Assembly (NCBI GenBank): GCA_021651055.1
Contig: JAJHOH010000001.1
Coordinates: 3,410,001 to 3,474,000, forward strand
Direction of reading: 5' to 3'
Source of the DNA: Candidatus Manganitrophus morganii
GTDB lineage: Bacteria > Nitrospirota > Nitrospiria > SBBL01 > Manganitrophaceae
Length of the DNA: 64,000 nt
Shown here in pieces: positions 43,151 through 62,747 of this stretch (position 1 is its first letter; each line of letters opens with the position of its first letter). Both the position numbers and the translations under genes were made by a program. The notes beneath the pieces were generated by a model. The model saw only the letters and a list, made by a program, of their open reading frames with translations, was not told where the DNA came from and did no database searches.

Positions 43151-43567
43151 TTATTTTAAGTCTTTACCGGTCGTGGTCGCAGTCAGTTTTCCATGCTTTA
43201 CCCCTTTTGTTGCGATGAGCGAATCGGCAATTCTCTTGATCTCACCGCTCCGGCCGCGTACGACCAATACCTCCAGGCAGCGATGCTGGTCCAGATGAAT
43301 ATGGAGGGTGGAGCGGATCAGTGAGGAATAATGGTGCTGCAGGTCGGTCAGCTTCTCCATCAGCTCATGGACTCCGTGATCATAGACAATCGTAATCGTT
43401 CCGACGGTTTCTTTATTTTCATCCCACTCCTGTTCGACCAGATGGTCCCGTATCAGATCGCGCAAAGCTTCAGAGCGATTGGTATATCTTTTTTCTTCTA
43501 TATACTGATCGAACTGTTTGAGAAGGCTCTCGTGGATGGAAACACCAAACCGAACGACATTTGACAT
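43151..43567 (-). CDS. nikR: Nickel-responsive regulator NikR
   Basis: A 138-residue protein. N-terminal ribbon-helix-helix (VVRFGVSIHESLLKQFDQYI) and C-terminal ACT-like metal domain. His78, His89, His91 and Cys97 keep the exact spacing of the E. coli NikR nickel site (His76, His87, His89, Cys95). It represses or activates transport genes in response to Ni(II). The gene points away from the metal efflux cluster that begins at 44046, suggesting control of that cluster or of its own transcription. The corrin operon raises the question of cobalt cross-talk. Confidence 0.94.
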   Translation of the reverse strand: MSNVVRFGVSIHESLLKQFDQYIEEKRYTNRSEALRDLIRDHLVEQEWDENKETVGTITIVYDHGVHELMEKLTDLQHHYSSLIRSTLHIHLDQHRCLEVLVVRGRSGEIKRIADSLIATKGVKHGKLTATTTGKDLK

Positions 43568-44045: not shown

Positions 44046-44546
44046 ATGTTCTATCGTAAAAAAAACCAACCCCGATTTCGAATGGCCCTCGCGTGTCTGG
44101 CGGTTTACCTGCTGCTCTGGGTGGGAAGCGCTCAAGGTTTAACGCTCGTTTCCGTGTTAATGGACAGTTCCCATCAAACCTTCATCGCAGGAAAAAGTGA
44201 TCAGGTCCGCCTGATCTTTCATCATTCCGGCTATCAGGATGAGCATGAACTTTTTCCAGGACATCCTGCTAAAGATCATGCCAGCCTGCTGGACCGGGTA
44301 TTGGCGGGCGGGATGGGAGACAGCCCCGCTCCCGATCATGAGTTTTATCTCTCCGACCATGAGCAGCAAATCACTCCCGAATCCACGGCAAAACCCGCAT
44401 CGGTTTTTAAAGTCCTTCCTCCATTAACAACCGCGCAGGAGGCGCTGGCGTTCGTTCCACCGGTTTTGAATCGTCCCTCTCCGCCGCCTCCATTTAAAAT
44501 AAGCGCCACACTCCTCTCTCTCCGCGCCACCGTTCTTCTGATTTAA
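44046..44546 (+). CDS. Secreted His-rich protein preceding czcC
   Basis: A 166-residue protein if started at ATG 44046; the frame is open from 43965 but the earlier part looks non-coding. A signal peptide or anchor (MALACLAVYLLLWVGSAQG) is followed by a His/Asp-rich region (HHSGYQDEHELFPGHPAKDH, PDHEFYLSDHEQQ) and a proline-rich tail ending in LLI. Likely periplasmic and metal-binding. Similar His-rich leader proteins stand before the TolC-type gene of cluster 2 (54837 and 56508), so position is conserved although sequence is not. No family is recognised with confidence. Confidence 0.65.
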   Translation: MFYRKKNQPRFRMALACLAVYLLLWVGSAQGLTLVSVLMDSSHQTFIAGKSDQVRLIFHHSGYQDEHELFPGHPAKDHASLLDRVLAGGMGDSPAPDHEFYLSDHEQQITPESTAKPASVFKVLPPLTTAQEALAFVPPVLNRPSPPPPFKISATLLSLRATVLLI

Positions 44547-44623
44547 ATCCTCCAACTTCCTCTCTCCTGATTCAAGGAGAAGGGAGTAGCCTGTTCTCCC
44601 TCAACAGACCTTTTGGAGGATTC

Positions 44624-46009
44624 ATGCGTTCAAAAACACTCACCATCTTAATCTTTATTCTCTTCTTCCTCGGATCACACGCCGGCGCCACCGCCCGCGC
44701 TGAGGAATCGCCCCCGACACCGCGTCCTCTGGGGAGCGACCTTCCAGCTTTCCGCGCCATTGCGCCCCGCCAGGAGATGCCCGACAGCCGAGGGGACGGG
44801 GCGGCCACCCGAGAACCGACCGGGGCCCTCACCCTCCGACAAGCTTTAGTCTTGGCGCTGATGCGCAATCCGGAGCTTCGGGCCTTCTCCTGGGAGGTTC
44901 GTGCGAGAGAGGCGGCGACCCTCCAGGCAGGGCTTCTCCACAACCCGACGATCGGCGCCGACCTGCAGGATCTTGGGGTTTCAGCTTCCCCCGACAGTGT
45001 CCCTCAACCCCAGGGTACTTTGCAGCTTAGCCAGATCATCGAGCTGGGGGGAAAGCGGACGAAGCGGCGCGAGGCCGCGGCGCTTTCGCGCGACCTCGCC
45101 GGATGGGACTACGAAACCAAGCGGATCGAGATCTTCACGCAGGTCACCCAGGCGTTTGCCGATCTGTTGAGAGGACAGCAGCAGCAGGAGTTGACGGAAG
45201 AAACGGTCCGGCTTGCCGAAGAGACGGCCCGCGTCGTCTCCGAACGGGTCCGGGCGGGAAAGGTGTCGCCGATCGAGGAGATCCGGGCGAACGTCGCGCT
45301 GGCTTCGGCGGGGATCGAACGCAATCGGGCCGGGAAGGAATTAGAGGCCGCCCGAAAACAATTGGCGGCCACCTGGGGAAGCGCGATCCCCCAATTTGAA
45401 AAAGCGGAGGGAATACTGGACGCCATTTCTCCTATTCCCTCCATTTCACAACTGGCCGAGCGTCTGTCCCAGAATCCGGATCTCGCCCGCTGGGCGACCG
45501 AAATCGCCCAGCGCCGGGCAGTAATCGATCTGGAGCGATCGCAGGGCGTTCCCGACCTGACCCTGATGGGCGGCATCCGGCGGTACGAATCGACGGGAGA
45601 CAACGTCTTCATCATCGGCCTCTCTTTTCCCCTCCCGCTCTTCAACCGGAATCAAGGGGGGATTCAGGAGGCGCGCGACCGGCTGGAGAAGGGGGAAGAA
45701 GAGCGGCGGGCCGCGGAGGTGCGGGTCACGACTGCGCTCTCGGAGGCCTACCGGACCCTCTCAACCGCGCACATCGAGGCGACCGCTCTGGAGGAGAAGG
45801 TCCTTCCCGGCGCCGCGCAGGCATTCGAGGCGGTGAACGAGGGATATCGGCTCGGAAAGTTCGGTTTATTGGATGTGTTAGACGCGCAACGGACGCTGTT
45901 CGGTTCGCGTGCGCAACATCTGCGCGCCCTGGCCGACTATCACCAGGCGGTGGCAGAGGTCGAACGGCTGATCGGGGAGCCTTTGGATGTTACTGGTGGC
46001 CGCCCCTAG
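44624..46009 (+). CDS. czcC: TolC-family outer-membrane factor of heavy-metal efflux (CzcC type)
   Basis: A 461-residue protein with a signal peptide (LTILIFILFFLGSHAGATARA), a proline-rich linker, then two OEP repeats: LTLRQALVLALMRNPELRAF with LSQIIELGGKR, and RYESTGDNVFIIGLSFPLPL with YRLGKFGLLDVLDAQRTLF. This matches CzcC/CusC. It forms the outer-membrane channel of the tripartite pump with the next two pump genes. ATG 44624 follows TTTTGGAGG. The 77-nt leader between the His-rich gene and this one holds two adjacent small hairpins (44563-44580 and 44582-44600), without a U-tract. Confidence 0.92.
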   Translation: MRSKTLTILIFILFFLGSHAGATARAEESPPTPRPLGSDLPAFRAIAPRQEMPDSRGDGAATREPTGALTLRQALVLALMRNPELRAFSWEVRAREAATLQAGLLHNPTIGADLQDLGVSASPDSVPQPQGTLQLSQIIELGGKRTKRREAAALSRDLAGWDYETKRIEIFTQVTQAFADLLRGQQQQELTEETVRLAEETARVVSERVRAGKVSPIEEIRANVALASAGIERNRAGKELEAARKQLAATWGSAIPQFEKAEGILDAISPIPSISQLAERLSQNPDLARWATEIAQRRAVIDLERSQGVPDLTLMGGIRRYESTGDNVFIIGLSFPLPLFNRNQGGIQEARDRLEKGEEERRAAEVRVTTALSEAYRTLSTAHIEATALEEKVLPGAAQAFEAVNEGYRLGKFGLLDVLDAQRTLFGSRAQHLRALADYHQAVAEVERLIGEPLDVTGGRP

Positions 46010-54056: not shown

Positions 54057-54387
54057 ATGGGCATCACTGCGTCGATATTTTATTTCATCCTGGCGGGTCT
54101 CTGTGAGATCGGAGGAGGATACCTCGTCTGGCTCTGGCTGCGAGAGGGGAAGCCGATCGGGTTCGCCTTGATGGGATCGGTCGTACTGGTTCTTTATGGA
54201 GCGATTCCGACGCTGCAACCGGCGCATTTCGGGCGGGTCTATGCCGCCTACGGAGGTGTCTATCGTTCTTTCTCTCCTATGGGGATGGCAGGTGGACGAG
54301 ATCGCCCCGGACAGATTCGATCTGATCGGCGTATCCATATTATGGAGTCTGAGTTTAGAGCTGCATTCCTGTGCTCCGAATGCATGA
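54057..54387 (+). pseudogene. ynfA: Frameshifted, truncated YnfA-family membrane protein
   Basis: The N-terminal half is a good YnfA/UPF0060 match ([20 protein letters not shown], then [15 protein letters not shown]). Right after VY (near 54261) the frame is lost; the continuation [20 protein letters not shown] and LIGVSILWS is read in another frame and runs to 54387. Loss of two bases explains it. The expected final helix is replaced by an unrelated tail. The gene is probably non-functional. The following 54388-54632 shows no gene. Confidence 0.8.
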
Positions 54388-54632
54388 AGACTGACTCCTT
54401 ATCCATTGCTCCTTTAACCTGCATGCAATGTGCATTAATCGTACAAACCGCATTATTTTGACCCCTGCTAACATTAAAGTCCTACGGATGACCCGTAGAC
54501 CCCACTATTCATGGGAATTTCCGGAACCTCTGAATAGGACACTACTTTAGCTGTACCCAATAAAATGTAAAGAATTTTCAGTTTCGTGATCTCGCAGAGT
54601 TTTCAACTGTTAGTGCTACGAAAATATTTTTC

Positions 54633-54663
54633 TTGACACGCAGCGGGGTCTCCGTGCTATAAA
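54633..54663 (+). promoter_or_regulatory. Candidate promoter of metal cluster 2 with 19-nt spacer
   Basis: TTGACA (54633-54638), 19-nt GC-rich spacer with a partial dyad (GCAGCGG...TCCGTGC), TATAAA (54658-54663). A 19-nt spacer is typical of promoters twisted open by MerR-family activators. The next gene starts about 165 nt downstream. Confidence 0.45.
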
Positions 54664-54836: not shown

Positions 54837-55229
54837 ATGAAAATGTCCATACGAAGGTATTCTGTACTTGTTCTGCTGACTGTTTGGTTTTTCATCTGGG
54901 GTATCTGTCCCTCAGACAATTCTTCGCCTACAGACCAGGCGATGGAGATGGCTCATACCAGTCACGGTCATCACCATGAAATGGATCATGCGCACCACTG
55001 TTCAAAAGGAACCGAGCATAGCTGTTCCGGTTCCATTGTTTATAGCAGCGATAATCCCAATTTAGGTCTTGTTTTCAGCTATACTACCCCGGTGTTGGTT
55101 CTCCCAATCGATACCGACTCTGATAATTTAAGCCAAGTTGAGGAATTTCAAAAACTTCTCTTTGAAAGAAGTCCCCTCCCAAAATTGATATCCGAATACT
55201 ACCAGCTCTACTCCGTTTATCGTATCTAA
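54837..55229 (+). CDS. Exported His/Cys-rich protein, paralog 1
   Basis: 130 residues. An N-terminal helix (YSVLVLLTVWFFIWGICP) is followed by a metal-ligand-rich segment: MAHTSHGHHHEMDHAHHCSK and EHSCSGSIVYS. The C-terminal half is without Cys and ends in YSVYRI. The paralog at 56499-56909 shares WFFIWGICP.DNSS, EMAHT.HGH, SKG.EHSCSGSI and a similar C-terminus. Probably a periplasmic, membrane-tethered metal-binding protein of efflux cluster 2. I do not recognise an established family. Confidence 0.75.
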   Translation: MKMSIRRYSVLVLLTVWFFIWGICPSDNSSPTDQAMEMAHTSHGHHHEMDHAHHCSKGTEHSCSGSIVYSSDNPNLGLVFSYTTPVLVLPIDTDSDNLSQVEEFQKLLFERSPLPKLISEYYQLYSVYRI

Positions 55230-55250
55230 ATCTTCTCTCGCACCTACGCA

Positions 55251-55317
55251 GCGTCTGCTTTGATCCGCGTGCCGTGCGCACTAGGCTCTATGTTCTCTAG
55301 AGAGGACGCCCTTTTTT
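55251..55317 (+). terminator. Possible weak terminator or attenuator
   Basis: GCGTC (55251-55255) can pair with GACGC (55305-55309), with CTCTA/TAGAG inside, and TTTTTT follows at 55312-55317. It lies between the His-rich gene and the barrel gene. Pairing is modest, so confidence is low. Confidence 0.3.
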
Positions 55318-55350
55318 GAAACATCAAGCATAGAAATAAGGAGAGAAGAA

Positions 55351-56304
55351 ATGAGAAATACAATAACGATCTGTTTTGCAGTCGGCCTTCTAATCGTATC
55401 TTCGGTTCAGACATGGGCACACGGAGATCCGGTCCGGAGCTTCGGTGCCGTAGGCAATTACACGACCGGTGGAGAGGTCAGCGAAGGGGTCGGATTCTCG
55501 ATCCGGTACGACCGAAGAGCTTATGATCTCTTTTCCGATGAGCAACTGCTTGCCTTCCGGGCACAAGGGGAAGATGTGCACCAGCATTCGAGCGAAGAGA
55601 CGATCTCTCTTAATTTCTCGGTCGGACTGAATAAAGATTGGGACCTTGGGTTCACTTTACCTGCAGCCCGCTTCACAGGCTTTAAAGATAATGGAGATGA
55701 TTTTGCCATTGCGAACAACACCATCTCTGAAACCGATGTGTCACAAGGATTGGGAGACCTTGTGATTCTGGGGAGGTATCGATTTTTTCAAAAGGACGAC
55801 CACCATATTGCTGCGCTCATGGGGGTGAAGCTGCCAACCGGAGACTACCGGCAGAGGACGAATGCCGGAGACCTCGTCGGAACCCACAATCAGCCCGGCA
55901 GTGGTTCGGTCGATTTCCAACTCGGTGTTGCGTATACAGGACACCTCCAGGATCTTTTGGCCATCTCGGCCGATCTGATTTCCAGGGTCAACACCGAAGG
56001 GGCCGGGGAATTTCGAAGCGGAAACTCGATTCTAGCTGATTTTGCAGTGGGTTATAGACCGCACTCCGCGTTTGTCCCCTTCATCGAATTAAATGCCATT
56101 TTTCAGCAGCGGGATATGGAATTTGACGAAGTAAAGAAAAACAGCGGCGTCGCTTCACTTTTTGTCTCGCCTGGGTTTCGCCTGACATTAGCGCGGGTTC
56201 ACACACTCTTTGCCTCATATTCCGTTCCCCTCTGGCAGTCTCTTCCCGGGATACAAAATGAAGAGGATTATCGGTTGGCCTTCGGCTACGGAATTGGTTT
56301 CTGA
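55351..56304 (+). CDS. Outer-membrane barrel of metal cluster 2 (phenol MetA-degradation-like)
   Basis: 317 residues. Signal peptide ITICFAVGLLIVSSVQTWAH, then beta-strand pairs with aromatic girdles: LNFSVGLNKDWDLGFTLPAA, GLGDLVILGRYRFF, and a terminal Phe in AFGYGIGF. The GLGD.VILGRYRF segment is common in the MetA-pathway-of-phenol-degradation family of barrels and in barrels near metal resistance genes. Likely an outer-membrane pore or sensor; the substrate is unknown. ATG 55351 follows ATAAGGAGAG. Confidence 0.75.
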   Translation: MRNTITICFAVGLLIVSSVQTWAHGDPVRSFGAVGNYTTGGEVSEGVGFSIRYDRRAYDLFSDEQLLAFRAQGEDVHQHSSEETISLNFSVGLNKDWDLGFTLPAARFTGFKDNGDDFAIANNTISETDVSQGLGDLVILGRYRFFQKDDHHIAALMGVKLPTGDYRQRTNAGDLVGTHNQPGSGSVDFQLGVAYTGHLQDLLAISADLISRVNTEGAGEFRSGNSILADFAVGYRPHSAFVPFIELNAIFQQRDMEFDEVKKNSGVASLFVSPGFRLTLARVHTLFASYSVPLWQSLPGIQNEEDYRLAFGYGIGF

Positions 56305-56471
56305 CTCATCACTTGTTTCCGCTCAAATCGCATCGGAGCGGGTCGTTTGCGTTGGTAGATTTCTTCCTGAAGCCGGCCGGTTCGAGCCCACAGCAGATAC
56401 TGTTAGAACCGGCTGGCTTCCAGAGGAGGATTTTTTCCAACTTTATTACACTCACCTTCTGTTCGTTTTAT

Positions 56472-56500
56472 TTGACAACGACCCAAGTCGCAAGTACAAT
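56472..56500 (+). promoter_or_regulatory. Strong promoter overlapping the start of His/Cys-rich paralog 2
   Basis: TTGACA (56472-56477), exactly 17 nt, TACAAT (56495-56500). Transcription would start about 7 nt on, at or next to ATG 56508, predicting a leaderless or nearly leaderless mRNA. Confidence 0.6.
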
Positions 56501-56507
56501 GAAGGAC

Positions 56508-56909
56508 ATGAAACCGAACTTCTATTTCAGGAATCGATTTTTCATCTCTGTGTTGCTCCTATTCTGGTTTTTCATCTGGGGGATCTGTCCTTGGGACAAT
56601 TCCTCCGAGGCCGCGCAGATCTTGGAGATGGCCCATACCCAGCATGGCCATCAGGCCGCCGAAGATACCCATCATGCTTCTAAAGGAATCGAACATAGCT
56701 GTTCCGGTTCGATTTCATATTCTCAAGTGAAATTAATAGAGGGAAAGGGCTTCCTTAAGCCCGCTCCACTGAGCGATTCTATCGTTCTGGTGGTTTTACC
56801 CTCCTACCTTTCTCAACCGCATCACCTCTCCTTACCTTTCTCCCAAACACCGCAATTGCCAAAACGTTTTTCTGAGCTCTATCAATTCAATCCAACCCTT
56901 CGTATTTAA
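56508..56909 (+). CDS. Exported His/Cys-rich protein, paralog 2
   Basis: 133 residues from ATG 56508; ATG 56499 is the alternative but overlaps the -10 box. The frame is open up to 56313 without clear coding. The helix FFISVLLLFWFFIWGICP is followed by EMAHTQHGHQAAEDTHHASK and EHSCSGSISYS, paralogous to 54837-55229. The His run is thinner here, and one Cys of paralog 1 is Ala. The tail ends in FNPTLRI. It directly precedes the TolC-type gene of cluster 2, as the His-rich protein at 44046 precedes czcC. Confidence 0.72.
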   Translation: MKPNFYFRNRFFISVLLLFWFFIWGICPWDNSSEAAQILEMAHTQHGHQAAEDTHHASKGIEHSCSGSISYSQVKLIEGKGFLKPAPLSDSIVLVVLPSYLSQPHHLSLPFSQTPQLPKRFSELYQFNPTLRI

Positions 56910-57001
56910 TCCGTCTTTTCAAAAACTAAATGAAGTAGTTCCGGATAGCATTTAATCGCTCCGGATCTTTGGATTTTACTTTTGAAAAGGAGGGAAATCG
57001 G

Positions 57002-58297
57002 ATGAAGATCATCCGTATTTGCCGATGGGCGTTCGTCCTATTCTTTAGCCTCTCCTCCGTTTTGCTGGCCCAAGAAAAAAATCCAGATCAATTCACTTTG
57101 GATCGGGCCATTCAAGAGGCCCTTGAGCGGAATCGTGACTTGGCGGCCGTCAGAAAGAATCGCGAGATTGCCGAGGGAATACTGGTTCAGTCCCGCACCT
57201 ATCCCTTTAACCCTGAGATTAACTTTGGAATGATGACTGATCAATGGACGAAGAACGAGAATGAAAACACCCGTAGTATTGGCCTCTCCCAGGAAATAGA
57301 AATTGCCGGTCAGCGGGGCTTAAGAATTCAGTCGGCGACCCTCGAGCAGGATAGGATTGAACGGGAGGTTCAAAACGCAGAGCGGCTTCTGGTGGCGGAG
57401 GTCCAGGCGCTTTTTAATCAACTGCTTCACCTAGAACGAAGGGTTGCCTTCTCCGATGAGGTCATTAACCTAAACCGCCAATTGGTCAAAACAACGGAGG
57501 ACCGGTTTGACGTCGGGGAGGCGCCGGGGTTGGATGTCAGCATCGCCCAGGTGGAACTGAACAGAACGATCAATGAGAGGACGGGCCTGGAACGGGAAAT
57601 GGCTGTGCTCCGGGCCCGCTTGAATCGCGTGATGGGGAGGCCTCCTCAGGACAATCTTAAACTGGTCGGCAGCATTGCCTTTCACCCGATCTCCCCGGAT
57701 TTAGAGGCGCTTCTGCAACTCGCCCGGGAAAATAGGCCCGATTTAATCTCCCTCCAAACCCGGCTCAAACAGGCCGACATTGAAACAACCCTCCAAAAGC
57801 GACAGCGGATGACAAACCTTCGGCTCTCTACATTTGTAGAGAAGAGCCGCGGAACGATTGGTGATGCGGCCGGAGCCACCCTTTCAGATCAGGATACGCT
57901 GATCGGAATCGGACTCTCTTTCTCCCTCCCTATCTTAAACCAGAGAAAGGGGGAGATCATCGAGGCGAGGGGGATCGCGCATCGGACCGAGCAGGAGAAG
58001 GAGGCGCTGGTCCTGCAGGTCGAAGAGGAGGTTCGTCAGGCCTTTTCCAGACTCAGCCTGACCCAAAAAGTTCTTACCCTCTTTGAGACAGGGATCTTGA
58101 ATCAGAGCCGGGAGAATCTCGATCTGATCCGAGCCGCCTATGAGGTCGGAGAGGTCGGGATCACGACGGTGATCCAGGAGCAGGAGCGTTTTATCCGGAC
58201 CAATATTTCCTATTTCGACTCCCTTTTTGACTTCCATGTCGCCTTCATCGATCTGGAACAGTCGGTCGGGAAGCGAATCATGGAAGGGATGATGTAA
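57002..58297 (+). CDS. TolC-family outer-membrane factor, cluster 2
   Basis: 431 residues from ATG 57002 behind AAAAGGAGGG. Signal peptide (FVLFFSLSSVLLAQ), first OEP repeat (FTLDRAIQEALERNRDLAAV with LSQEIEIAGQRGLR) and second (LIGIGLSFSLPILNQRKGEI, YEVGEVGITTVIQEQERF). It is the outer channel for the RND genes that follow. It lacks the proline-rich N-terminal linker of the cluster 1 protein. Confidence 0.92.
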   Translation: MKIIRICRWAFVLFFSLSSVLLAQEKNPDQFTLDRAIQEALERNRDLAAVRKNREIAEGILVQSRTYPFNPEINFGMMTDQWTKNENENTRSIGLSQEIEIAGQRGLRIQSATLEQDRIEREVQNAERLLVAEVQALFNQLLHLERRVAFSDEVINLNRQLVKTTEDRFDVGEAPGLDVSIAQVELNRTINERTGLEREMAVLRARLNRVMGRPPQDNLKLVGSIAFHPISPDLEALLQLARENRPDLISLQTRLKQADIETTLQKRQRMTNLRLSTFVEKSRGTIGDAAGATLSDQDTLIGIGLSFSLPILNQRKGEIIEARGIAHRTEQEKEALVLQVEEEVRQAFSRLSLTQKVLTLFETGILNQSRENLDLIRAAYEVGEVGITTVIQEQERFIRTNISYFDSLFDFHVAFIDLEQSVGKRIMEGMM

Positions 58298-58308
58298 AGG
58301 AGAATTCG

Positions 58309-59541
58309 ATGATGATAAAAAAAATTAAAAAAACGCTCTCTTTGGGGCTCCTCCTGTTGTTTCTTCTCGCGCTTTTTTTAGGGGGGCGCTCCTTTTTGAG
58401 AGGTAGTGAGACAGTGCCGGGAAAAAGCGACGAGGCGGCTTCCGAAGAGACGCCCTCGGGCGGCACGATGGAGGAGGGAATTCATCTCTCTGCGGAAGCG
58501 GCCCAAAACATTGGGCTTCAGATCGAAGAAGTGGCGGTCCGCGCCATCGAAGAGCTGATGACATTTACAGGTGGAATTTCTCCTGAGCCGGATCAGGAGG
58601 TCTTTGTGACCTCCCGAATACCCGGAAAGGTCGAGCGGGTTTATGTGAACCTGGGCGAGCCGGTCAAGCAGGGGCAGCTTTTAGCCGAGATTCGAAGCCT
58701 CGATTTTGAAAATCTACAAGTGGAGTTTTTTCGGGAACTGACCAACGAGGAGCTTCTCCACATTGATCGGGAGCGGATCAGAAATCTGGTGGAGAAGAAG
58801 ATCGCGGCATCAAAAGAGCTTGCAAAGGTGGAGTCCGACCATAAGAAGGTTGAAGGTGAAATTAATGGGCTTAAGAATAAGCTTCTCCTTTTAGGTCTCA
58901 AAGAGGAGGAAGTCGAAAGACTCGTTCAGACGAAACAATTTATTCCGGTCCTTCCCGTCGTGGCGCCGATCTCGGGTCAGGTGGTCGAGCGGGCCGCCAC
59001 GGTCGGCGGCACGGTCGATCCTCAGGACAAGATGTTCCATATCATCAACCTCTCCAGGGTGTTGGTGGAGGGGGATATTCCAGAGGACCGGGGGGGAATG
59101 ATCCGAAAAGGCCAGGAGGTCCGCGTCCGCGTCTCGACCTATCCGGAGGACGCCTTTAGCGGCCGGGTCAATTATATTTCCGATGTGGTCGATCCTCAAA
59201 AGCGGACGATTCATCTCTGGAGTGCCGTGCCCAACCCGGACCGGAAATTAAAACCGGGGATGTTTGCCAGAGTGTCGGTGATTACCGAAAAGAAAAATGA
59301 GGCCGTCGCCGTTCCGATTCGGGCGATTTTGGAAGAAGGGGCGGAGCGCTTTGTCTTTGTTCAAAACGGAGAGGAATTCATCCGGCAAACGGTGGTCTTG
59401 GGGGTCCGCGATGACCGGTATGTTGAGGTGAAAGAGGGGTTGATGCCGGGGGACCAGGTGGTGACCCGTGGAAATCAGCAATTGATGCTGGCCCAGATGT
59501 CGGGCGGCTCTACGGGCGGCGGGGATGGGCATACCCACTAA
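58309..59541 (+). CDS. RND periplasmic adaptor, cluster 2, without CzcB N-domain
   Basis: 410 residues: an N-terminal helix (TLSLGLLLLFLLALFLGG), a short acidic linker, then the core adaptor (MEEGIHLSAEAAQNIGLQIE, VTSRIPGKVERVYVNLGEPV, VVAPISGQVVERAATVGGTV). The C-terminus is GGGDGHTH, a possible metal-binding tail. The extra PHGG domain of CzcB is absent; an equivalent domain is encoded separately at 62744. ATG 58309 follows AAAGGAG, 11 nt after the TolC-type gene. Confidence 0.92.
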   Translation: MMIKKIKKTLSLGLLLLFLLALFLGGRSFLRGSETVPGKSDEAASEETPSGGTMEEGIHLSAEAAQNIGLQIEEVAVRAIEELMTFTGGISPEPDQEVFVTSRIPGKVERVYVNLGEPVKQGQLLAEIRSLDFENLQVEFFRELTNEELLHIDRERIRNLVEKKIAASKELAKVESDHKKVEGEINGLKNKLLLLGLKEEEVERLVQTKQFIPVLPVVAPISGQVVERAATVGGTVDPQDKMFHIINLSRVLVEGDIPEDRGGMIRKGQEVRVRVSTYPEDAFSGRVNYISDVVDPQKRTIHLWSAVPNPDRKLKPGMFARVSVITEKKNEAVAVPIRAILEEGAERFVFVQNGEEFIRQTVVLGVRDDRYVEVKEGLMPGDQVVTRGNQQLMLAQMSGGSTGGGDGHTH

Positions 59542-59555
59542 AAGAGGAGGGGACG

Positions 59556-62500
59556 ATGTTTAACAAAATGATCCATTTTTCGCTTCAAAACCGGTTGCTG
59601 GTGGTGGCCGGAGTCGCCCTCCTTTTTGTCTATGGCGCCTTTGTTATCATCCGCCTTCCGGTCGATGTCCTTCCCGACATGAACCGGCCGACCGTCACGG
59701 TCCTGGTGGAGACCGGGGGATTGGCTCCTGAAGAGGTCGAAACGCTGGTGACTTTTCCGATTGAGACGACTTTAAACGGCGCTCCGGGTGTGACGCGGGT
59801 TCGCTCCTCGTCGGCGGTCGGCTTTGCGGTTATTTGGGTCGAGTTTGATTGGGGCACCGATATTTACATCAATCGCCAGATCGTCAACGAGCGGCTTCAG
59901 ATCGCCGCCGGACGGCTTCCCGAAGGGGTGGGGACGGTCATGGGACCGATCTCTTCCATCATGGGAGAGATCCTCCTGATCGGGATGCGAAGTGAAACAG
60001 GAGAAACCCCTCCCATGGAGGTCCGGACTCTGGCCGACTGGGTGGTTCGGCAGCGCCTGCTGACGATCTCCGGTGTGGCGCAAGTGATCCCGATCGGCGG
60101 AGAGGTAAAGCAGTATCAGGTCTTAGTCTCTCCTCCGCGTCTGGCGCGCCTTGGGATCTCTCTCTCGGAGGTGGAGCAGGCGGTGAAAGAGGCCCAGAAA
60201 AATACCACTGGCGGTTTCCTAGAAAACCCGAACAAAGAGTTTCTGATCCGAAATTTAGGCCGGACTTCGGAGCTTTCCGAGATCGCCAATACGGTGATCA
60301 CCAATCGCGACCATGTCCCAATTTTAATTCGGGATGTCGCCCAGGTCCAATTCGGTCCCAGAATCAAACGAGGCGATGCCTCGATCAACGGAAGTCCGGC
60401 GGTGATCCTCTCGGTCCAGAAGCAGCCGGGAGCCAACACACTCGCCCTCACCCAGGAAATCGAAAAAGCCATGGCAGAGATTCAGGGGACGCTGCCCGGT
60501 GACGTGAAGTTGCTCCCTCTTTTCAAGCAGGCCAATTTCATCGAGGCGGCCGTCGCCAATGTGGAGGAGGCACTGCGGGACGGCGCCATCATGGTGGCCA
60601 TCATCCTCTTTCTCTTCCTGCTCAATTTCAGGACCACATTCATCACCCTGACCGCCATTCCTCTCTCGTTCATCATCACGGCGATTGTGTTCAAATATTT
60701 CGGCATCACGATCAACACGATGACTTTAGGGGGACTCGCCGTGGCAATCGGCGAATTGACCGATGATGCCATCGTCGACGTGGAGAATGTCTTCCGGCGA
60801 CTGAAAGAGAATCGTCACAAAGCCGATCCCGAAAATATTCTAAAGGTGATCTATCAGGCTTCTCTGGAAATCAGAAGCTCCATTGTCTATGCCACCATTT
60901 TGGTTATTCTGGTCTTTATTCCCCTGTTTGCCCTGAGCGGGATCGAAGGCCGGCTCTTTGCCCCGTTCGGGATTGCCTACATTACCTCTATCACCGCCTC
61001 TCTTTTTGTCTCCTTGACGGTGACCCCGGCCCTTTGCTCCTATCTGTTACCGAAGTCAAAAGCAATGGAGAAAGAGGAATATGGAAGCAGGTTGGTGCAA
61101 TTCCTAAAAAACCAGGATCGGAAGCTCCTTCATTTTACCCTTCGGCATGCTTACCTCGTGATGGCCGGGGCGGGGGTCCTTTTTCTCTCGGCCGTCGCAA
61201 TTATCCCCTTTCTGGGACGGGAGTTTCTGCCGGAATTTAATGAAGGGACCGCGACGATCAGCCTCTTAACCGTTCCCGGAACCTCTCTGGAAGAGTCGAA
61301 CCGGATCGGCTCTTCGGCCGAGCGCCTTCTGATGCAAGTTCCCGAAGTCGTCTCTGTCGGAAGGCGAACCGGGCGCGCAGAGTTGGATGAGCATGCGGAG
61401 GGGGTGCATTCCTCCGAAATCGATGTCGATATGAAACGCTCTAAACGTGACCGTTCGGAGATTCTTCAGGACATCCGGGGCCGTCTGGCTCAACTTCCCG
61501 GTGTGGTGGCGAATGTGGGCCAGCCGATCTCTCATCGTCTGGACCATCTCCTCTCCGGGGTCCGGGCCCAGATCGCGGTGAAGATTTTCGGGACCGATCT
61601 TGATCTGCTGCGCCGGAAGGCCCAGGAGGTCGAGTCCGCGATGCGGACGGTGCCGGGGGTGGTTGATCTTCAAACAGAAAAACAGGTTCTGATCCCTCAG
61701 GTGAAGATCAAAATCAAACGGGAGGAAGCGGCGCGCTTCGGGATCAAGACCGGAGAGCTCGCGGAGCTGCTGGAGACCGCCTTTAACGGAAAGGTCGTCT
61801 CCGAGGTGTTGGATGGTGTCCGGACATTTGACATCCTGATCCGGTATGAACCGGAGGCCCGGGCCAACCTAACCGCTTTCGAAGACGCTCTGATCGACAC
61901 CCCCACCGGCGGCAAGGTCCGCCTGGGAACGATTGCGGAGATCCAGGAATCGCTGGGGCCGAACGTGATCAACCGGGAGAATGTTCAAAGACGCATTGTG
62001 GTGATGGCCAACGTGGCGGAGCGGGATTTAGGAGCGGTGATCGAAGAGATCCAGAAGAAGGTCGCCTCGCAGGTGTCCTTTCCGCCAGGATTCTTCATCA
62101 CCTACGGCGGACAGTTCGAAAGCCAGCAGGCGGCCACCCGGATGATCGGCCTTCTCGGCCTCTTCTCCGTCGCGGCGATGTTTCTGGTCCTCTACACCCA
62201 TTTCAAATCGGCCCGGATCGTCCTTCAGATCCTGATCAACATCCCGCTCGCCTTCATCGGCGGGATGGTTGCCACCTTTTTGACCGGCAGGGTCCTGTCG
62301 GTCGCCTCGCTGGTCGGATTCATCGCCTGCATCGGGATCGTCAATCGGAACACGATCATGATGATCTCGCATTACATCCATTTGATCAAAGAAGAAGGAG
62401 AGCGATTTGATGAGAAGATGATTGTGCGGGGATCTCTGGAGCGGCTGGTCCCGGTGCTGATGACCGCGCTGACGGCCGGCCTGGCTCTGGTTCCCCTCGT

Positions 62501-62747
62501 CCTGGCCAAGGGGGAGCCGGGCAAAGAGATCCTCTATCCGGTGGCCACTGTCATCCTGGGGGGGATCATCGTTTCCACCCTTCTCGATATGGCCCTCACC
62601 CCGGCGGTCTTCTACAAATTCGGCGGTCCTGCGGTAGAGAAGTTTTTGAAGGAAGAAGGGAAAAAATTAGACACAGTGGAGGAGCGGAATGGCCATGAAG
62701 AGATCATGACCCTTTCCCCTCTGGAAGAAAAAGGAGGAAAGGTATGA
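59556..62747 (+). CDS. Heavy-metal RND efflux pump, cluster 2
   Basis: 1063 residues, twelve helices, two periplasmic loops. The TM4 motif is AIGELTDDAIVDVENVFRRL (Asp403, Asp404), different from the DFG-x3-DGA motif of cluster 1 and not the classical Cu/Ag motif. GREFLPEFNEGTATISLLTV corresponds to the periplasmic hallmark. Cation specificity is therefore probably distinct from the first pump. The TM4 type, rather than overall similarity, should guide assignment. It overlaps the final gene of the cluster by ATGA. Confidence 0.93.
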   Translation: MFNKMIHFSLQNRLLVVAGVALLFVYGAFVIIRLPVDVLPDMNRPTVTVLVETGGLAPEEVETLVTFPIETTLNGAPGVTRVRSSSAVGFAVIWVEFDWGTDIYINRQIVNERLQIAAGRLPEGVGTVMGPISSIMGEILLIGMRSETGETPPMEVRTLADWVVRQRLLTISGVAQVIPIGGEVKQYQVLVSPPRLARLGISLSEVEQAVKEAQKNTTGGFLENPNKEFLIRNLGRTSELSEIANTVITNRDHVPILIRDVAQVQFGPRIKRGDASINGSPAVILSVQKQPGANTLALTQEIEKAMAEIQGTLPGDVKLLPLFKQANFIEAAVANVEEALRDGAIMVAIILFLFLLNFRTTFITLTAIPLSFIITAIVFKYFGITINTMTLGGLAVAIGELTDDAIVDVENVFRRLKENRHKADPENILKVIYQASLEIRSSIVYATILVILVFIPLFALSGIEGRLFAPFGIAYITSITASLFVSLTVTPALCSYLLPKSKAMEKEEYGSRLVQFLKNQDRKLLHFTLRHAYLVMAGAGVLFLSAVAIIPFLGREFLPEFNEGTATISLLTVPGTSLEESNRIGSSAERLLMQVPEVVSVGRRTGRAELDEHAEGVHSSEIDVDMKRSKRDRSEILQDIRGRLAQLPGVVANVGQPISHRLDHLLSGVRAQIAVKIFGTDLDLLRRKAQEVESAMRTVPGVVDLQTEKQVLIPQVKIKIKREEAARFGIKTGELAELLETAFNGKVVSEVLDGVRTFDILIRYEPEARANLTAFEDALIDTPTGGKVRLGTIAEIQESLGPNVINRENVQRRIVVMANVAERDLGAVIEEIQKKVASQVSFPPGFFITYGGQFESQQAATRMIGLLGLFSVAAMFLVLYTHFKSARIVLQILINIPLAFIGGMVATFLTGRVLSVASLVGFIACIGIVNRNTIMMISHYIHLIKEEGERFDEKMIVRGSLERLVPVLMTALTAGLALVPLVLAKGEPGKEILYPVATVILGGIIVSTLLDMALTPAVFYKFGGPAVEKFLKEEGKKLDTVEERNGHEEIMTLSPLEEKGGKV

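Follow-up and report, generated by a model that had tools for sequence, protein, structure and literature searches.

In Rhodobacter capsulatus, the exported leader CutF carries a Cu-binding motif that delays its export, opening a stem-loop over the Shine-Dalgarno (SD) sequence of cutO (PMC9973294), and the filter of Ozturk et al. (2023) collects CutF-like ORFs by a PP in the last 15 residues, a length of <150 aa and an N-terminal Sec signal peptide. CruR acts through Rho, with a sign opposite to that of CutF (PMC9426467), while SecM, VemP, MifM and RAPP-type leaders are exported nascent chains whose C-terminal arrest sequence frees the next SD from a stem-loop (PMC10987492). CzcI, encoded before czcC, has been reported as a periplasmic protein quenching CzcCBA activity (PMC10127602). 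Here, we describe two unrelated families, F1 and F2, that are likely to be cis-acting leader peptides working as nascent-chain metal sensors.

Exported peptides in a metal-resistance region

The stretch of DNA analysed (64,000 nucleotides, hereafter the window) belongs to a single-contig genome of 4.29 Mb from the genus Candidatus Manganitrophus (Nitrospirota, Ca. Troglogloeales). Between 43 and 63 kb, it carries in order a NikR gene (43151–43567, minus strand, upstream of the F2 leader; the leaders, their promoter-like sites and pairing arms, and the genes that follow them in the window are on the plus strand), czcCBA, two CDF transporters, the F1 region and a second TolC-adaptor-CzcA set. 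The F2 leader (44046–44546) is an exported, His/Asp-rich peptide of 166 aa that ends LLSLRATVLLI*, and its predicted target is a CzcC-type outer-membrane efflux protein (44624–46009, PF02321). This CzcC is ~94–96 % identical to copies on the Manganitrophus plasmids CP114554 and CP114558, and the metal cassette that contains it seems to move between chromosome and plasmid. F1 leader A (54837–55229, 130 aa), an exported His/Cys peptide ending LISEYYQLYSVYRI*, precedes a Phenol_MetA_deg-type outer-membrane barrel (55351–56304; PF13557, E value 1e-12), its putative target. F1 leader B (56508–56909, 133 aa, ending RFSELYQFNPTLRI*) stands before its own putative target, a TolC/CzcC-type outer-membrane efflux protein (57002–58297, PF02321), which is followed by an RND periplasmic adaptor (58309–59541) and a CusA/CzcA-family RND pump (59556–62747, TIGR00914). 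The likely start of leader B is the ATG at 56508, not that of a longer TTG ORF, and the TolC start was re-assigned from its SD to the ATG at 57002, not the TTG at 56969. Upstream of the F1 region, a YnfA/UPF0060 ORF (54057–54461) matches its family over the first two-thirds only and is probably truncated or frameshifted.

The original prediction, which placed two paralogous exported His/Cys proteins at 54837–56909, was borne out: both ORFs are present, are 48 % identical (BLASTP: E value 5e-32) and share WFFIWGICPxDNSS, EMAHTxHGH, SKGxEHSCSGSI and their C-termini, and domain matches confirm that they flank the barrel and precede the TolC/RND operon. The family was also rightly called unnamed, since no Pfam or NCBIfam model matched F1 above cut-off; the same search returned no family for F2, and no match for the leader proteins was found among solved structures. 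The third exported protein, at 44046, is real and lies before czcC as predicted, but its assignment to the same class as F1 was not upheld, homology between F1 and F2 being rejected at a profile–profile probability of 5 %.

F1 comprises 21 members of 126–140 aa, with one of 154 aa. Each consists of an N-terminal hydrophobic helix with an invariant WGxCP, a potential metal site of the form HxH...HH...EH[ST]C (HGH...HH...EHSC), a linker and a C-terminus conserved right up to the stop codon (consensus LPKLLTEYYQLYSVYRI, end motif YYQLYSVYRI), without Pro near the end and without Pro-Pro in the last 15 residues. The pN/pS ratio is 0.27 for the C-terminus, 0.29 for the metal motif and 0.71 for the linker; the metal motif and the C-terminus are under strong protein-level selection, with synonymous change saturated. 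The linker shows 24 % identity, yet the distance from the Cys to the C-terminus is constant at 64–71 residues. AlphaFold, run on the 21-row F1 alignment, which is thin for such a prediction, returned no fold: besides the helix at the N-terminus it predicted just two weak ones (mean pLDDT 57, pTM 0.24), so F1 is predicted to be mostly disordered.

F2 has 15 members of 155–166 aa, is found in most genomes of the order and lies directly before czcC in 12/15 loci and before czcB in the other three. Its motif, HP...HHxGNxDxHE...HxHDLLD...HxDHE, is without conserved Cys; its end is [TS]x[IV]L[LI][IV] (...TVLLI*), and PP occurs ~17–22 residues before the end, with none in the last 15. The last DH lies 61–67 residues from the end, so that metal motif and C-terminus are equally far apart in two unrelated families. 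Alignments and structure prediction place a hydrophobic N-terminal helix in every member of both families.

Leaders A and B are joined by three further F1 copies within ~7.6 kb downstream of the window (genome 3474539, 3478540 and 3481169), giving five tandem copies over ~17 kb. F1 is present in 6/6 Candidatus Manganitrophus genomes examined, each of which has between two and six copies, and in a single genome from another family of the same order (two copies), and was not found in the remaining genomes of the 58-genome search. When 396 Nitrospirota genomes were searched with a profile, no credible member emerged beyond the order, and a contig scan of genomes returned just three F1 loci, every one inside it. 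Copies also occur on Manganitrophus plasmids, at positions where the PLSDB table has no gene. One locus (genome 1594121–1594255, minus strand) appears to be an F1 leader remnant of which the C-terminal codons and the post-stop complement of the SD alone are left, standing before the intact-looking start of a small outer-membrane gene.

A near-consensus sigma-70 promoter lies ≤75 nt upstream of the start of 12/21 F1 genes against 2/195 control ORFs, a comparison that is optimistic because the F1 sequences are related. Several of these promoters are close enough to the start to leave the mRNA with almost no 5′ leader, among them the promoter-like TTGACA-17-TACAAT at 56472–56500, whose −10 end is 7 nt from the leader B ATG. 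For leader A, a promoter-like TTGACA-19-TATAAA (54633–54663; consensus match only) is situated ~173 nt 5′ of the ATG and is similar to MerR-type promoters in its 19-nt spacer, which contains an imperfect dyad.

A single leader type, F1, heads many different metal genes. In addition to the barrel and the TolC of the RND operon in the window, its neighbours elsewhere include a multicopper oxidase with CopB, a YHS/P-type ATPase, cytochrome c, a heavy-metal-resistance (LTXXQ-like) protein, DUF326 Cys-rich proteins, and an uncharacterised small outer-membrane-type protein with a companion gene. Placement before TolC/CzcC genes, as first proposed, thus held insofar as F1 adjoins metal-handling genes, but the oxidase/CopB, P-type ATPase and cytochrome c loci go beyond it. 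The small outer-membrane-type protein (QADYRNLDPGRPI) and its His/Met-rich companion form a recurrent pair downstream of F1 leaders (L033, 9669–10451 and 10489–11673, and orthologs) without a Pfam match, and several copies look decayed.

Pairing of post-stop bases with the next Shine-Dalgarno sequence

Within a few bases 3′ of the leader stop begins a pyrimidine-rich segment, the anti-SD, whose sequence is complementary to the next gene's SD. In the window, TCTTCTCTC, just 3′ of the leader A stop (55231–55239), pairs with the sequestered SD region of the barrel gene, GAGAGAAGA (55341–55349); CTTTTCAAAA, 3′ of the leader B stop (56915–56924), pairs with 56980–56989, part of an arm, TTTTGAAAAGGAGGG (56980–56994; TTTTGAAAAG-GAGGG), that continues into the TolC SD; and ATCCTCCAA, immediately 3′ of the F2 stop (44547–44555), pairs with the czcC SD region, TTGGAGGAT (44613–44621). 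All three helices are part of the minimum-energy structures (fold z −3.0, −2.4 and −3.5 for A, B and F2, respectively).

Across both families, pyrimidines account for 80 % of the 12 nt that follow the stop; in 35 control gene pairs taken from the same loci, the share is 45 %, and the members form stronger duplexes than these controls do (p = 5.5e-6). The F2 arms are mis-registered in the MAFFT alignment, and permutations of own versus swapped SDs therefore serve as the test: post-stop arms prefer their own SD to a swapped one in F1 (p = 3e-4) and in F2 (p = 0.006), although these P values are all optimistic, as the sequences in each family share ancestry and some are almost the same. Since the arms differ among members and still pair best with their own SD, compensatory change is indicated. 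In 6/21 F1 loci (L037, L038, L040, L042, L045 and L046), pairing is no better than in shuffles; among the F1 loci with weak pairing, several have a decayed-looking next gene or an SD paired elsewhere. No stop-adjacent anti-SD follows the czcI stop before czcC in C. metallidurans CH34, and pairing next to the stop does not reach significance in Pro-Pro-ended CutF-like ORFs from Thauera, Rhodopseudomonas, Bradyrhizobium, Methylophaga, Novosphingobium, Glaciecola and Rhizorhabdus, suggesting that such an anti-SD is more than a general property of ORFs that precede TolC.

Peptide anatomy, conservation pattern, RNA pairing and gene order are thus established, and they bear on the role first suggested for these proteins, that of periplasmic metal buffers for RND pumps. 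On that account, F1 and F2 would be metal-buffering or pump-modulating proteins akin to CzcI or CusF, and the SD pairing would reflect stoichiometric translational coupling. Export, the His/Cys or His/Asp motifs and the adjoining metal genes all fit, as does the precedent of CzcI as a periplasmic protein (PMC10127602). However, the linker is free in sequence while fixed in length, the C-terminus is kept to the stop while synonymous codons vary freely, five near-redundant tandem copies stand ahead of different genes, the genes headed by F1 also include oxidase, ATPase and cytochrome genes, which are not RND targets, F1 is predicted to be mostly disordered, and a comparable anti-SD is absent at C. 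metallidurans czcI-czcC. The buffer proposal is thus not supported, and we regard it as unlikely. The free-sequence, fixed-length linker, the C-terminus conserved to the stop and the post-stop anti-SD are instead what a cis-acting leader peptide would be expected to show; the proteins may nonetheless have a role of their own as well.

Ribosome position could also control transcription termination in the intergenic gap, as opposed to SD access, by a CruR-like attenuation for which Rho-based CruR is the precedent (PMC9426467). In the gap between leader A and the barrel, a T run accompanies a terminator-like stem (55291–55308), and long T runs precede the SD in several F2 gaps. These T runs, however, pair with A runs after the anti-SD, lengthening the helix, the leader B gap has no terminator-like site, and the gaps are short (mostly 43–128 nt). 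We consider attenuation very unlikely and SD access the step that is probably controlled.

A proposed nascent-chain metal switch

From the anatomy of the peptides and the precedent of CutF, we infer a nascent-chain sensor that stalls in a metal-dependent way, along with the direction of its response and the identity of the metals. The leader would be exported via Sec during its own translation, and when the ribosome reaches the last codons, the metal motif would be ~61–71 residues from the peptidyl-transferase centre and only just emerging into the periplasm; a chain of ~65 residues is needed to span the ribosome tunnel plus the translocon. Metal binding in the periplasm would change the pull on the chain and lengthen the stay of the ribosome at the conserved C-terminus, probably at the stop codon. 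The waiting ribosome would cover ~9–12 bases past the stop that otherwise pair with the SD of the next gene, and the freed SD would permit translation of the detoxification gene. As a ribosome waiting at the stop codon would be expected to cover the anti-SD, and conservation extends to the last codon, we propose a termination-type or last-codon arrest. Several points weigh against this reading: neither C-terminus is a tested arrest motif, F1 lacks Pro near its end, the pairing at 6/21 F1 loci does not exceed that of shuffles, and plain translational coupling shows SD sequestration too.

The Cys ligand and the copper genes nearby suggest a Cu/Ag-like metal for F1, whereas the His/Asp-only ligands of F2, with czcCBA and NikR, point to a Ni/Co/Zn-like metal. 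The effect of metal may go in either direction, given the opposite signs of CruR and CutF.

A different signal, failure of Sec export itself, would be read if the leaders were export monitors of the SecM/VemP kind and the His/Cys motif a mere modulator. The signal or TM helix, variable linker, conserved C-terminus and SD-masking helix are all as in SecM and its relatives (PMC10987492), but the metal-ligand residues are invariant and the targets are metal-handling genes, not secA, secDF or yidC, which makes this explanation highly improbable.

If the leader reading is correct, hypothetical His-rich proteins become a predicted metal-detoxification sensing layer in manganese-oxidising Nitrospirota, in which outer-membrane and oxidase genes each seem to bear a translational metal switch of their own, and two candidate arrest motifs are gained that are directly testable in vitro.

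Comparison with known leader systems

Ends reminiscent of F2 occur on small exported ORFs directly before TolC on plasmids of Methylomonas (L103, 937–1392; L107, 801–1256; L108, 822–1277; ends LALRSTVLLI* and LALRSIVLLN*), Defluviicoccus (L110, 776–1225; IALRSVRLLT*) and Salinibacter (L104, 675–1274; SVILLI*). These ORFs, annotated merely as hypothetical proteins, differ from F2 in having another N-terminal sensor, which contains Cys. In M. koyamae, a 12-bp anti-SD lies right behind the stop, and the annotated TolC start looks too far downstream; with annotated starts, no anti-SD was found in Defluviicoccus or Salinibacter. The F2-type end may be a mobile arrest module joined to different sensors. 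We tentatively suggest, as a possibility that may well not hold, a modular class of periplasmic metal-sensing leaders whose arrest element, of the termination type, ends exactly at the stop without a late Pro-Pro (F1, YYQLYSVYRI*; F2, LxLR[ST]xVLLI*), and in which the F2-type end would be joined to varied metal-binding sensor domains and a stop-adjacent anti-SD switch in Nitrospirota, Proteobacteria and possibly Rhodothermota.

Neither family has detectable sequence similarity to known models. Like CzcI (NF045614/NF045615), F2 is a small exported His-rich ORF immediately before czcC, but these models, which do recover CH34 CzcI, match no F1 or F2 member, and the families differ from CzcI in their C-termini and in the anti-SD that the CH34 czcI stop lacks. 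F1 resembles CruR (DUF2946, PF11162; PMC9426467) in heading copper operons and in encoding an exported peptide whose metal motif lies at a constant distance from a conserved C-terminal motif. Unlike CruR, it has no CXXC or RAPP motif, its spacing is 64–71 versus 45 residues, and an SD switch is predicted in place of Rho termination; membership of DUF2946 was rejected (best score 14.7 bits against a cut-off of 23.7, E value 0.055), and a PF11162 search of the genome recovered 0 F1 loci. With SecM, VemP, MifM and RAPP-type leaders (PMC10987492), both families share an exported nascent chain and a C-terminal sequence ahead of a stem-loop over the next SD, but their targets are metal genes and their ends (YYQLYSVYRI* and LRxTVLLI*) are not RAPP-like: RAPP/RAGP-like C-terminal motifs and downstream secA, secDF or yidC are absent in F1 and F2.

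A classical CutF-like leader (CHCLCH ... RPPISLL*) precedes TolC on the Manganitrophus plasmid CP114559 (L112, 969–1316), indicating that several leader types coexist in the genus. The closest likeness of F1 and F2 is to CutF, with which they share a small leader predicted to be exported, a metal motif, conservation of the C-terminus and RNA pairing that masks the next SD (weak or absent in 6/21 F1 loci), and the genes downstream of CutF-like ORFs are, as here, OEP/TolC, RND, multicopper oxidase and similar. They depart from CutF in that the conserved end reaches the stop codon and the anti-SD begins no more than a few nucleotides past it. Both also lack a Pro-Pro in the last 15 residues, and F2 exceeds 150 aa, so the published CutF-like filter would exclude them. 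The trick itself is known; F1 and F2 are new families with different end motifs that most likely work like CutF, which would extend CutF-type control past the Pro-Pro ends used so far to collect such leaders.
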